Shown here one piece after another: positions 51,832 to 59,072 of a stretch of 60,883 bases of DNA. Origin of the DNA: Streptomonospora alba. Lineage in GTDB: Bacteria; Actinomycetota; Actinomycetes; Streptosporangiales; Streptosporangiaceae. Location: contig NZ_JROO01000008.1 of assembly GCF_000826685.1 (NCBI RefSeq), positions 1 through 60,883 on the forward strand. Reading direction: 5' to 3'. Position numbers and translations under genes: made by a program. The stretch's first letter is position 1. Every line of letters begins with the position of its first letter. The notes beneath the pieces were generated by a model, which worked only from the letters and a program-made list of their open reading frames with translations, did no database searches and was not told the origin of the DNA.

Positions 51832-52428
51832 ATGGTCGAAGACGAGTGCGGCAACGTCGAGATCGACTTCCACGACGACCGCGACACCACCGGCACCGCC
51901 CCCGAGGCCCTTGCCGCCTACGCCGCGGCCGGCGGGCCCGAGCGCCTGCAGCGCCTAAGCATCACCGGACGCCGCGGCCCCACCGCCCCGCAGCTACTCA
52001 TCACCCCGACCGAGGCGCAGCTGGTCGTCGACGAGCCCGACAACGGCGCCCGCGGAGCCGCCCAGCGGCTCGTGGAAGTAGTCGGATCGCAGCCCGTGCC
52101 GACCACCCACACGCTGCGACGCCTCCTCATCGCGCTGCTGGGCAGCACCGGGGCGCTTCTGCCCGTCGTGATCGTGTGGTGGGACCTGGATCCCGACGAC
52201 GCCGAAGGCGCGCTCATGATGAGCGCGCTCGCGCTTGCCATCGCCGCCGGTGTCGGCAGGGCCCTCTGGCGATCTCCCCCGCCGTTGAAGACGGTGCTGA
52301 TCAACGGTCCCCGTGCCGAGCGGCCCACGTGGTGGCAGCGCCACCGCAAGGACATCTTCCTAGTGCTCATCAGTGGTGTGGTCGGCAGTGTCATCGGCTA
52401 CTTCGTCAACCAGCTCCCGCCGCTGTAG
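51832..52428 (+). CDS. Hypothetical membrane protein, possibly frameshifted at its start
   Basis: The 198-residue frame begins MVEDECGNVEIDFHDDRDTT. It has a soluble N-terminal half, then two hydrophobic pairs (LLIALLGSTGALLPVVIVWW and MSALALAIAAGVGRAL) and a C-terminal span (IFLVLISGVVGSVIGYFV). Coding sense continues upstream in the same frame (RLVRLYREELVEAARMVEDE) but lacks a start codon. Another frame starts at the ATG at 51701 (MTAPEPAEEPADEVSVLSHA). A one-base indel near 51780 would join them. The soluble-plus-membrane layout resembles effector-associated actinobacterial proteins, but I do not recognise it. Confidence 0.6.
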   Translation: MVEDECGNVEIDFHDDRDTTGTAPEALAAYAAAGGPERLQRLSITGRRGPTAPQLLITPTEAQLVVDEPDNGARGAAQRLVEVVGSQPVPTTHTLRRLLIALLGSTGALLPVVIVWWDLDPDDAEGALMMSALALAIAAGVGRALWRSPPPLKTVLINGPRAERPTWWQRHRKDIFLVLISGVVGSVIGYFVNQLPPL

Positions 52429-53440: not shown

Positions 53441-53630
53441 CTACTGGCCAGGGTGCTCCTGCGATTCGGTGCTGTTCTTGACGGCCGTGACCTCGCCGTG
53501 CACCACGGCCAGGCTCACCCCGACCCCGCGGGCGATCGCGCGCAAGGACTGACCCTCGGCGCGGCGGGCCAGGATCGCGCGGCGCTTGTCGTCGTCGACC
53601 ACGCGAGGGCGCCATCTATGTCCGGGAGAG
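53441..53630 (-). pseudogene. C-terminal fragment of a serine recombinase/resolvase
   Basis: The minus strand reads RPRVVDDDKRRAILARRAEG, then QSLRAIARGVGVSLAVVHGE and a stop at 53441. This is the HTH tail of a resolvase (G-R-P-x-V-x-D-D-x-K...GxSxRxIAxxxGVS). The catalytic domain is missing upstream, and no start codon fits. Confidence 0.75.
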
Positions 53631-54633: not shown

Positions 54634-55045
54634 GCGTGCCCTCGCTGGACCGCTACGGCCGCTCCCTGGCCGATTTGGTGACCATGGTCGCCGAACTGCG
54701 CCGCCAAGGCGTCGGGTTCACTTCGCTGCACGAGCGCCTGGACACCACCACGCCCGGCGGGCGGCTGGTCTTCCACGTCTTCGCCGCGCTGGCCGAGTTC
54801 ATCCGCGAGCTGATCGTGGCCGGCACCCGCGAGGGCCTGGCCGCGTGGGCGGGCGGCCCAGCGTGGTCAACGACGACCTGATCCGTGCGGCCCGCGACAT
54901 GTTGCCGCGCCCGGAGTACTCGGTGGCCTCCATCGCCAAGCTGCTGGGGGGCAGCCCCGGCACGCTCTACAACCACATCCCCGACCTCGCCGAGCTGCGC
55001 GCCGGGCGGGCGCATCCGGCGCTGGAGCCGAGTCAGGACAGCTGA
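54634..55045 (+). pseudogene. Tn3-type resolvase, 5'-truncated and frameshifted
   Basis: The frame reads PSLDRYGRSLADLVTMVAEL, then RLDTTTPGGRLVFHVFAALA and EFIRELIVAGTREGLAA, the second half of a serine resolvase catalytic domain. Near 54850 the frame changes and the HTH tail continues as VGGRPSVVNDDLIRAARDML and SVASIAKLLGGSPGTLYNHI. The N-terminal half with the catalytic serine is absent. It belongs to a decayed Tn3-family element. Confidence 0.85.
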
Positions 55046-56465: not shown

Positions 56466-57398
56466 ATGAGCTACACGCTGCTGTACGCGTCCCACTGCGC
56501 AAGCTGCTCGCACGTCGCCGATTCCGTAGCCTCCCTCAACGTCCCCGGTCTGGATGTCGCACCGCTCCATGCCCCTCACATTCGAGAGCTTTTCACCCAA
56601 GCCGGGCGGACGGTTCCGGACGGGCCTGCGCTGATCCACTGGGACGGGGCTCGGCTGGCTGTATGGATGGGCTTGCCCATGAGGATCCGTTTGGTGCGGC
56701 TCCTCGGGTTCTCGCGCGCCTCGTCGATCATCGGGCTATTGGGGCAGGAAGCCCGGGCGCGAGCGGAGCGTCGTGGCCAACAGGGCGGCCTCAACCGGCG
56801 CACTCTGTTCACCGGGGGTGCGGTGGCCGGTATCGGCGCCGTGGTTTTCGGCGCCGGCGCCGCACCGGCCCAGGCCCAAGGACAAAAGCAGCCCCCGGTG
56901 TTTGCCCTGTCGGATGAGCAACGCCATGAACTGTTGGACAGCGAACCTATGCGTGCGGGGATCCGTCGATGGGGCGGTGCTCAGGAGTCCGAGATCTTCG
57001 GCATCCGGGATAGCAAGGATCAGGTGATCGGCTGTGTCCCGCACGAAGGCAGTCGGGCGACCACCCTCGCCACTATCGGCGTGAGCGCCCCCTACGGGAT
57101 CACCCTTCTTCCCGATGCTGAGCGGGAGGTTCTCGGGTTCCACCAGCCCACGGGCGAGGCGGTGGGCGAACTGTATCGGGACGGAGAACGCACGCAGGCG
57201 CGCGAACCGGCGGATACCGCCGTCACCAAGGCCGCCGATCCTGGATTCCGCGCCTGTTTCCTGGCCTGCATCGGCGCCAACGTGAACGGGGACTGCGTCG
57301 GCACATGCATGTATTGCGCGACGAATACTGTTTCCTGTTTTATGTGCACCGCCTGCGCCGGCGCACTGGGGATCGACTGCGCTGCTCAATGCCTCTGA
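56466..57398 (+). CDS. Bacteriocin-like fusion: thioredoxin-like CxxC head, internal Tat signal, ten-cysteine tail
   Basis: The 310-residue protein has three parts. Residues 1-100 form a DCC/thioredoxin-like head (YTLLYASHCASCSHVADSVA, CxxC at 11-14). Residues 105-138 form a Tat-type signal, NRRTLFTGGAVAGIGAVVFG with twin Arg at 111-112 and APAQAQ cleavage, placed internally. The export part ends in a tail with ten cysteines at 264, 268, 277, 281, 284, 291, 294, 297, 305 and 309 (FRACFLACIGANVNGDCVGT and later CFMCTACAG). This layout recalls proteins annotated as fulvocin C-related, and halocin C8 with its Tat signal and ten-Cys toxin. A bacteriocin is plausible but not proven. A hydrolase-like gene follows. 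Confidence 0.8.
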   Translation: MSYTLLYASHCASCSHVADSVASLNVPGLDVAPLHAPHIRELFTQAGRTVPDGPALIHWDGARLAVWMGLPMRIRLVRLLGFSRASSIIGLLGQEARARAERRGQQGGLNRRTLFTGGAVAGIGAVVFGAGAAPAQAQGQKQPPVFALSDEQRHELLDSEPMRAGIRRWGGAQESEIFGIRDSKDQVIGCVPHEGSRATTLATIGVSAPYGITLLPDAEREVLGFHQPTGEAVGELYRDGERTQAREPADTAVTKAADPGFRACFLACIGANVNGDCVGTCMYCATNTVSCFMCTACAGALGIDCAAQCL

Positions 57399-57486
57399 CG
57401 ATCACGGGACCATGACCACGCGTGTGGAACAAGGCCGGTGCGGGCACGCATGATCCGTGCCCGCACCCCCTCCGGAGGAGGCCGAC

Positions 57487-58305
57487 ATGCCTGAAGCCCG
57501 AACCGCCCCCCTCGTCTGCTTCCTCCATCCGCTCGGGAACGAGAAGGTCTGGTGGCGTCTCAGGGAGGCGCTGCCGAGCCGGGTCCGCACCCTCGCGGTG
57601 GAACAGCCGCCCAGTGGCCGCATCACTCCGCCCGACCTGACCCAGGACATCGCGGAGGCGGCGCGCACCGTTCTGCCCGAGACGGGCGCCGATCTGGTGG
57701 TGGCCCCCGACCTCGCCGCCAGCGCGGGCGCCGAACTCGTCGCCGACCGCAGCGCCGCGCACGGCCTGCTGATCAATCCCGACACCGCTGCGCTGATCGG
57801 CCACCCCGGCTTCCAGACCGGCACGCTCGGCTCCGACACCGGGCACTTCCTGAAGGCCATCGCCCCCTACTCCGAACAGCTGCGCGAGCACGGGACCGTC
57901 CCCCCAGAGGGGGTCGAGATCATGGTGGAGCACTCGATCGGCAGTTGCGCGCCTCTGGACGAACAGGACCGGCGCCTGCTCCGCGACATCGCCACCGACC
58001 ACATGACCCGGTCGATGCCTCTCGATCTCCCCGCGGCCGGCGTTGCCCCGGTGCCGCCGGAGCACAACTGGTTCGCCCGTCTGAGCGCGGAGCCCGAGCG
58101 TTTCACCGTCTACTCCGGAGAACTCGGCCACTTGAGCGAACAGGTCCGCACCGTGGTGCCCCGCAACGTCCCCGGGGCGCGCGTGGTGCGGGCGGCCCCC
58201 AGCACCGGGTTCCCCTGGCTGGAGGAGCCGGCAGCGCTGGCCGCACTCGTCGCCGACCTGGTGGAGACGGGGGCGCCGACATCGGGGGACCTCACGCACG
58301 GGTGA
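57487..58305 (+). CDS. Alpha/beta-hydrolase-fold protein lacking the usual catalytic triad
   Basis: The 272-residue protein has the alpha/beta-hydrolase layout: an oxyanion-type turn LVCFLHPLGNEKVWWRLREA near residue 10 and a C-terminal FPWLEEPAALAALVADLV block. The nucleophile elbow, normally G-x-S-x-G, reads APDLA with Asp75. The catalytic His, normally in HFPWLEEP, is replaced in STGFPWLEEP. It is therefore diverged or non-catalytic. A ggaggag site precedes the ATG, 88 bases after the cysteine-rich gene. It may be a partner, binding or immunity protein of that product. No other assignment is possible. Confidence 0.75.
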   Translation: MPEARTAPLVCFLHPLGNEKVWWRLREALPSRVRTLAVEQPPSGRITPPDLTQDIAEAARTVLPETGADLVVAPDLAASAGAELVADRSAAHGLLINPDTAALIGHPGFQTGTLGSDTGHFLKAIAPYSEQLREHGTVPPEGVEIMVEHSIGSCAPLDEQDRRLLRDIATDHMTRSMPLDLPAAGVAPVPPEHNWFARLSAEPERFTVYSGELGHLSEQVRTVVPRNVPGARVVRAAPSTGFPWLEEPAALAALVADLVETGAPTSGDLTHG

Positions 58306-58619: not shown

Positions 58620-59072
58620 GTGCGGGAGCGCTATTGGGCGCGGGTGTGCTGGCGCGGCGCCGACCGGTGCGCACCGTGGCTGGGGACGCTCTCCTCGACC
58701 GGGCACGTCAAGGTCCGCGTGGGTTCGCGGGCGGACGGGACGCGGCGCATGGTCAGCGCCCACGTGCTGGGATACCAGCTGGCCCGCGGCCTGATCACCG
58801 AGGAGGCCGACCTCGTGCTCGCCCACAGCTGCGACGAGCCCGCCTGCCAGCAGCCCGACCACCTCTCCCTCGTGCCGCGCCGGCGCAACGGCGAGGAGTG
58901 CCAGGCCCGGCAGTGGAGCGGACCGCTGCTGGACGCGCGCGGTCCGCGCGGGCGTGCCGCGGCAGTACGCGAGGCGATCCTCGCCGCCCGCGAGAGGGGC
59001 GAGGACGTCGAGGCAGCCATCGCCGCAGCCCGATCCGCCGGCATGCCCACACCGGGCGAGCGGCTCTTCTGA
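58620..59072 (+). CDS. HNH endonuclease-like protein
   Basis: The 150-residue protein has an HNH_3-like core: RERYWARVCWRGADRCAPWL, AHVLGYQLARGLI with the first His, then LAHSCDEPACQQPDHLSLVP with paired Cys and the second His. Such small nucleases occur in mobile elements and phages. The C-terminal helix AAAVREAILAARERGEDVEA may bind DNA. The GTG at 58620 is the first usable start. No clear ribosome-binding site is seen. The role may be in a mobile element or in defence. Confidence 0.75.
   Translation: MRERYWARVCWRGADRCAPWLGTLSSTGHVKVRVGSRADGTRRMVSAHVLGYQLARGLITEEADLVLAHSCDEPACQQPDHLSLVPRRRNGEECQARQWSGPLLDARGPRGRAAAVREAILAARERGEDVEAAIAAARSAGMPTPGERLF

Follow-up and report, generated by a model that had tools for sequence, protein, structure and literature searches.

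The window, by which we mean the whole stretch of 60,883 nucleotides analysed here, encodes a protein of 310 residues (56466-57398) in which a predicted thioredoxin-type head, an internal export signal and a Cys-rich tail follow one another in a single chain, and this architecture is confirmed. Our favoured reading, held tentatively and a little below an even chance, sees in the protein the precursor of a small peptide that is secreted, rich in disulfides and probably antimicrobial, and a member of a modular family of Actinobacteria whose head and signal are constant and whose middle and tail are exchangeable cargos. The features of the region are collected in Table 1.

Table 1. Positions in the window of the precursor-like protein, its parts and the gene that follows it.
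Feature	Position	Strand	Basis
Precursor-like protein, 310 aa (coordinates with the stop codon)	56466..57398	+	ATG-start ORF; head homologs
Thioredoxin-type head (predicted), residues 1-105	56466..56780	+	AF2, PDB profile, Foldseek
CxxC, C11-A-S-C14	56496..56507	+	49/49 non-redundant members, with C..C in the first 45 residues as entry condition
Pro54, place of the thioredoxin cis-Pro	56625..56627	+	49/49; cis geometry presumed from the fold
Internal export signal N-RRTLF-hydrophobic-AQA, residues 110-137	56793..56876	+	Sequence; R111 44/49, R112 15/49
Middle region, residues 140-255	56883..57230	+	No family match; decayed partial relative in G151
Ten-Cys tail, residues 264-309	57255..57392	+	Cys count; last 20 residues related in G151
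12-bp hairpin, leader of the partner gene	57437..57467	+	Fold z -2.0; 90% of cells paired, 7 aligned copies
Partner gene, 272 aa, apparently derived from an alpha/beta hydrolase, without the usual Ser and His	57487..58305	+	Adjoins precursor remnant in G151; 8 copies aligned

The order of the parts can be read directly from the sequence. The CxxC head is followed by N-R111-R112-T-L-F at residues 110-115 and by AQA at residues 135-137, and the tail lies after this signal, as the first-pass annotation had described. The ten Cys that it had counted in 46 residues are also present; the middle region holds one more (VIGC). Of the 530 stop-to-stop ORFs of at least 60 aa in the window none has more than these ten, yet in this GC-rich DNA 9 Cys in 46 residues occur in two further ORFs. 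Cys density is thus weak evidence by itself, and we rejected it as proof; we count the observation as real because of homology. Profile searches returned little for the protein: no Pfam match at E values up to 10, a single weak TAT-type match in NCBIfam that lies over the signal (E 0.16), and one weak match in PHROGs (E 0.09), where the product of the downstream gene had none.

The head is predicted to have a thioredoxin-type fold, which bears out what had been proposed from its sequence. A profile of ten heads matched thioredoxins in the PDB (best E 0.002). AF2 was run on alignment A4, whose 27 members came from a scan seeded with fulvocin-type heads, and gave residues 1-100 in blocks of pLDDT 83-96 (mean around 92), no usable structure beyond residue 172, and none for the middle or the tail. 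Nearly all of the 50 Foldseek matches listed were of thioredoxin type (thioredoxin, PDI, glutaredoxin, KaiB), with a best E of 1.8e-3, none at 1e-3 or better, and TM-scores by target length under 0.5. These weak scores may be explained by the disordered rest of the model and by a missing first strand and helix. The model has the CxxC at the first helix, the order beta-alpha-beta-alpha-beta-beta-alpha and a Pro opposite, as in thioredoxins. The Pfam gathering scores of PF00085 and PF04134 were not reached by any of the ten heads (best E 0.012 and 0.1), and the head of the protein itself matched neither family. We met no account of this head in a literature collection that covers subscription journals thinly.

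Relatives of the protein were found in various Actinobacteria. Matches were found in at least 34 of the 341 genomes of the same GTDB family, 33 to the head and one, in genome G151, to the middle only, and heads were matched in at least 17 of the 394 genomes of the class; both counts include the genome of the window and are lower bounds, as only part of the candidates per genome were scored. Five genomes of the same genus yielded no relative. A pattern scan seeded with fulvocin-type heads led to 28 named loci, among them loci of Planobispora, Planomonospora, Nonomuraea, Streptosporangium, Actinokineospora, Kribbella, Nocardia, Streptomyces, Nocardiopsis and Brachybacterium. A pattern scan of named genomes based on the single protein gave 81 matches with no relative among them, viral contigs gave 5 pattern matches, again with no relative, and tblastn against plasmids and phages gave no match. 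In most relatives the head is followed by an Arg-led hydrophobic segment and then by a Cys-rich end.

We collected 71 sequences, removed 10 fragments or broken copies and merged 12 near-duplicates, which left 49 including the query. C11, C14 and P54 are invariant in this set, for which a C..C in the first 45 residues was required for entry, and G69 is found in 48 members. The genome of the window contains a second gene of the family on contig C76 (around positions 1423-2523 of locus L051), with an in-frame stop in the head; its first active-site Cys was not found, a Cys-rich tail and an RR signal are present, and it is followed by a small membrane protein, as in genome G026. In the window, at 51832-52428, lies a protein without Pfam match whose relative (47% over 212 columns) adjoins the broken head-family copy on C76.

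The export signal varies more than the head. The first Arg is kept in 44 of the 49 members, and the residue pairs at this place are RR (15), RA (9), RK (8), RS (5), RP, RH and RG (2 each) and RL (1), with no Arg in the remaining 5. The A-x-A site is not universal either (A135 in 34/49, A137 in 43/49). As judged from this alignment, the feature of the family is an Arg-led internal segment and not twin Arg, so the internal twin-arginine signal of the first-pass annotation holds for this protein and does not extend to its relatives. In the protein itself R-R-x-hydrophobic-hydrophobic, an h-region and A-x-A can be read by eye, and TatC is encoded in the genome, which is permissive only. Export by Tat is plausible here; it would not be general in the family, since the second Arg varies.

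The layout had been said to be known from proteins annotated as related to fulvocin C, and this proved right: 23 of the 27 members of A4 have the same head and signal and match NF033852, the NCBIfam model of bacteriocins related to fulvocin C (cut-off 35 bits). The query is among the four that do not. Its head and signal match genome G010 at E 2.7e-13, and the G010 protein (L002) matches NF033852. In L002 the model spans residues 174-326 only; it starts behind the signal and so does not include the head. An HMM search against the fulvocin C-related and halocin C8 families, suggested earlier as a check, placed the protein in neither. We rejected membership in NF033852, as the model did not match the protein at E values up to 10, nor as member 1 of A4, and likewise in TIGR04449 (halocin_C8_dom, cut-off 24 bits), which gave no match to the protein. 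Across the genome of the window NF033852 gave no match, in a search whose controls gave none either, and TIGR04449 gave none, with a match in 1 of 14 control genomes.

We compared the cargo with that of five relatives by pairwise alignments and 300 shuffles. Some tails are alike (L003 and L046, z 14.8; L008 and L004, z 4.0). For the query tail the one near match is the tail of L003 (z 3.4, 2 of 300 shuffles); the query middle is near none of the five. The whole cargo was equalled by 2 to 6 of 300 shuffles against the four relatives that are not of fulvocin type, and showed no such likeness to L002; this may reflect common descent from very far back or a similar composition. An even number of Cys is found in the tail of 41 of the 46 members with a recognised site, a count that depends on a crude site finder and on related sequences.

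A search of the 394 genomes of the class found no intact relative of middle or tail, with weak matches in 8 genomes other than that of the window (E 0.004-0.010). The one relative found is a decayed copy in G151, a Nocardiopsis-type genome of genus g73. Part of the middle is recognisable there (E 1.7e-9). In another frame the final 20 residues of the tail are 55% identical (E 0.003); both E values come from a small database. Lack of conservation of the tail Cys had been named as grounds for abandoning the idea, and it is half the case: tails vary by class, and the query tail has one decayed relative. The differing tails fit a swappable cargo, as far as the sequences allow; this tail itself is unproven.

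The gene that follows the precursor-like protein, hereafter the partner, is also the next gene after the remnant in G151 (E 1.4e-94), and nucleotide similarity between window and G151 is continuous from the end of the tail through the partner. It was found in 7 of 338 genomes of the family, the genome of the window included and having two copies. No precursor lies within 3 kb upstream of 6 of the 8 partner copies. The second copy in the genome of the window (contig C58, 9743-10555) is solitary, 90% identical and preceded by the leader; apart from a 25-base match, the similarity between C58 and the window does not extend beyond partner and leader. Of a third copy, a C-terminal scrap lies at positions 177321-177422 of contig C2. 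The partner seems, from these comparisons, to move by itself. Its pairwise dN/dS values (0.28-0.87) could reflect conflict or decay.

The partner is apparently descended from an alpha/beta hydrolase, judging by motif order. Residues 6-90 of its profile align with an ORF of the genome of the window (E 0.005) and with one of the same-genus genome G005 (E 0.001); by eye, both carry HG and GHSLG, the latter not kept in the partner. This descent is not established, since the profile gives a similar score to a different sort of ORF in G002 (E 0.004). GxSxG at the aligned place is absent in all 8 copies, as is a His immediately before FPWLE/YPWLE, which we take to be the expected place of the catalytic His. 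A profile search of the partner against the PDB returned noise only (E 0.64), the copy of the window had no Pfam match, and AF2 run without an alignment gave a pLDDT of 36. A GTGTGGAA-like box and the 12-bp hairpin stand just before the ribosome site of the partner and recur at 7 aligned copies. We rejected the hairpin as a conserved RNA, its covariation being not above that of shuffles. Rfam gave two matches, both far below gathering scores, and scans for promoters and terminators found nothing.

Other neighbours were analysed at further loci. Of the 4 loci of the L004 kind, 3 have an Fe-ADH gene next (L058, L060 and L061, not L057), where L060 and L061 come from one genome and the Pfam assignment of Fe-ADH was made on the L060 copy only. 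In the L008 kind a small membrane protein follows in 2 of 2 loci (54% identity over 79 residues). The L004/L008 tail group is therefore followed by an Fe-ADH gene, by a small membrane protein or, at one locus, by neither. These tails are related and yet have different neighbours, so the choice of neighbour does not simply follow the tail. At the 28 named loci, mostly of fulvocin type, a crude gene caller showed no neighbour common to more than 4, so there a gene dedicated to immunity is not usual. Very large proteins of a single family were seen near fulvocin-type genes in 4 of these loci, namely on both sides in Planobispora (L094, 1731-5636 and 7818-11729) and in L095, L096 and L107.

The setting of the gene suggests that it lies in an accessory stretch, given a truncated serine resolvase at 54636-54881 (PF00239 positions 70-138), a sub-threshold HNH match in the ORF at 58620-59072 (E 0.002) and a lower GC content, 0.66-0.70 between 44 and 58 kb compared with 0.69-0.77 in the first 30 kb. 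By eye, the resolvase likely continues at its C-terminus in another frame. A stretch of 159 bases at 53455-53613 is also found, 89% identical, about 1.1 kb beyond the partner in G151.

These observations can be arranged into the following course, parts of which we infer. The head, whose fold is predicted, would fold in the cytoplasm, and its CxxC would exchange disulfides with the tail in cis, such that the ten Cys are kept reduced or correctly paired until export. The segment from NRRTLF to AQA, a motif seen in the sequence, would carry the C-terminal part across the membrane, probably by Tat in this protein, in an N-in/C-out topology that leaves the head behind. Cleavage near AQA and again before the tail would give the free peptide, and the downstream hydrolase-like gene, which lacks the usual nucleophile and His, may protect the producer. 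This last role is suggested by the linkage in two genera, the solitary copies and the fast evolution of the partner. The precursor reading draws on the fold of the head, the invariance of Pro54 and the retention of the first Arg, on the NF033852 domain carried by relatives with an equal head and signal, on cargos that differ under one head, on the mostly even Cys counts of the tails, on the encoded TatC, and on the presence of the same gene after the precursor and after its remnant. Against it stand the lack of an intact relative of middle or tail among the genomes searched, the varying second Arg, a head that is constrained even where the signal is worn, neighbours that do not track the tail, the mostly solitary partner copies, a partner dN/dS that could also signal decay, a cargo whose separate origin from the other tail classes is uncertain, and the want of an AF2 structure for middle and tail. 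A bolder version is doubtful: the constant thioredoxin head would act in cis as a foldase built into the chain, serving disulfide-rich toxin tails that are interchangeable throughout Actinobacteria, and exchangeable neighbouring genes (the dead hydrolase, the Fe-ADH-like protein, the small membrane protein) would confer immunity, in a polymorphic bacteriocin system with an internal signal, whose head is missed by models cut after the signal. The different neighbours of the related L004 and L008 tails lower the odds of both.

The precursor reading is complicated by nine Nocardiopsis-type proteins that have lost RR at the aligned place and whose linker and hydrophobic stretch are worn (median dN/dS 0.68), while the head (0.27), the middle (0.26) and the tail (0.28) are constrained. 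In addition, the heads of L114, L007 and L048 lack a Cys tail or are tail-poor. Even where export is lost, then, the head is of use; this favours a redox or immunity function that belongs to the head itself and leaves us less confident in a pure export helper. Head and middle might be the conserved working part, a protein for self-immunity or thiol redox at the cytoplasmic face of the membrane, with the tail as an optional cargo or redox substrate, and loss of export and of part of the tail would leave an orphan protector. The purifying selection on head and middle in the lineage without RR, the tail-less or tail-poor heads, and the want of a neighbour common to more than 4 of the named loci all speak for this, yet we consider it rather improbable: a head conferring specific immunity should vary with the tail, whereas tails of several classes share a single kind of head, and the Nocardiopsis-type tail is under selection as well.

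The varying signal allows another view, in which the segment after the head is an uncleaved signal anchor (Sec/YidC or Tat) and the protein a membrane-tethered thiol sensor or reductant with a Cys-rich domain outside, and not a bacteriocin. In 14 of the 49 members Ala or Ser takes the place of the second Arg, the A-x-A site is incomplete in some and a tail product was not seen. This is the least likely of the alternatives, as the protein itself has RR, and the exchange of tails and the naming of NF033852 after fulvocin C fit cargo better than a sensor. A separate question, compatible with any of these readings, is whether the partner is a mere neighbour of a precursor that acts alone. The 6 of 8 copies without precursor nearby, and a leader common to the copies as if the partner had moved as a unit, make this a substantial possibility that nevertheless stays short of probable; the same gene order in two genera and the nucleotide similarity that runs from the end of the tail through the partner point the other way.

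If the precursor reading is true, there are bacteriocin precursors whose chain includes a helper for disulfide formation, across the membrane from the product. It would then be testable whether a cytoplasmic CxxC in cis decides the pairing of a Cys-rich peptide before or during export. The conserved head also offers a handle for tails that present models miss. Through its NCBIfam relatives the family would link fulvocin C of Myxococcus fulvus to a wide set of Actinobacteria.

The closest comparisons differ for each part of the protein. With thioredoxin and DCC1-like oxidoreductases the head shares the CxxC, the order of secondary structure and the position of the Pro; unlike them it is N-terminally shortened and fused to an export signal and a cargo, and the Pfam scores of the heads stay under the curated cut-offs. 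The signal of ProC8, the precursor of halocin C8, is presumably N-terminal, whereas that of our protein starts at residue 110, and we take the Cys content of the C-terminal peptide of halocin C8 to be a point of likeness. For a Tat signal inside a chain there is a precedent in the Streptomyces Rieske protein, in which an internal Tat signal exports the C-terminal domain according to the available text of PMC13186574; that protein is a polytopic membrane protein, and we claim no relation in sequence. ProC8 is likewise exported by Tat, and it has a middle part and a C-terminal peptide, maturing after export into HalI and the peptide, in the available text of PMC11509114. That text mentions no domain before the signal, and the halocin domain model does not match our protein. 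The first-pass annotation had likened a possible immunity role of the head to the N-terminal part of halocin C8; the analogy is misplaced, because ProC8 is exported first and matures afterwards, so that the counterpart of HalI would be the middle region after the signal (same text of PMC11509114). For fulvocin C, which is a bacteriocin from Myxococcus fulvus, the available text of PMC8708641 cites a published primary structure. The NF033852 proteins resemble ours in having a thioredoxin-type head, an internal Arg-led signal and a Cys-rich C-terminus in one chain of mostly 300-340 aa. The layout is the known one of the fulvocin C-related proteins, and what differs here, by sequence comparison, is the middle and the ten-Cys tail, which fall outside NF033852.
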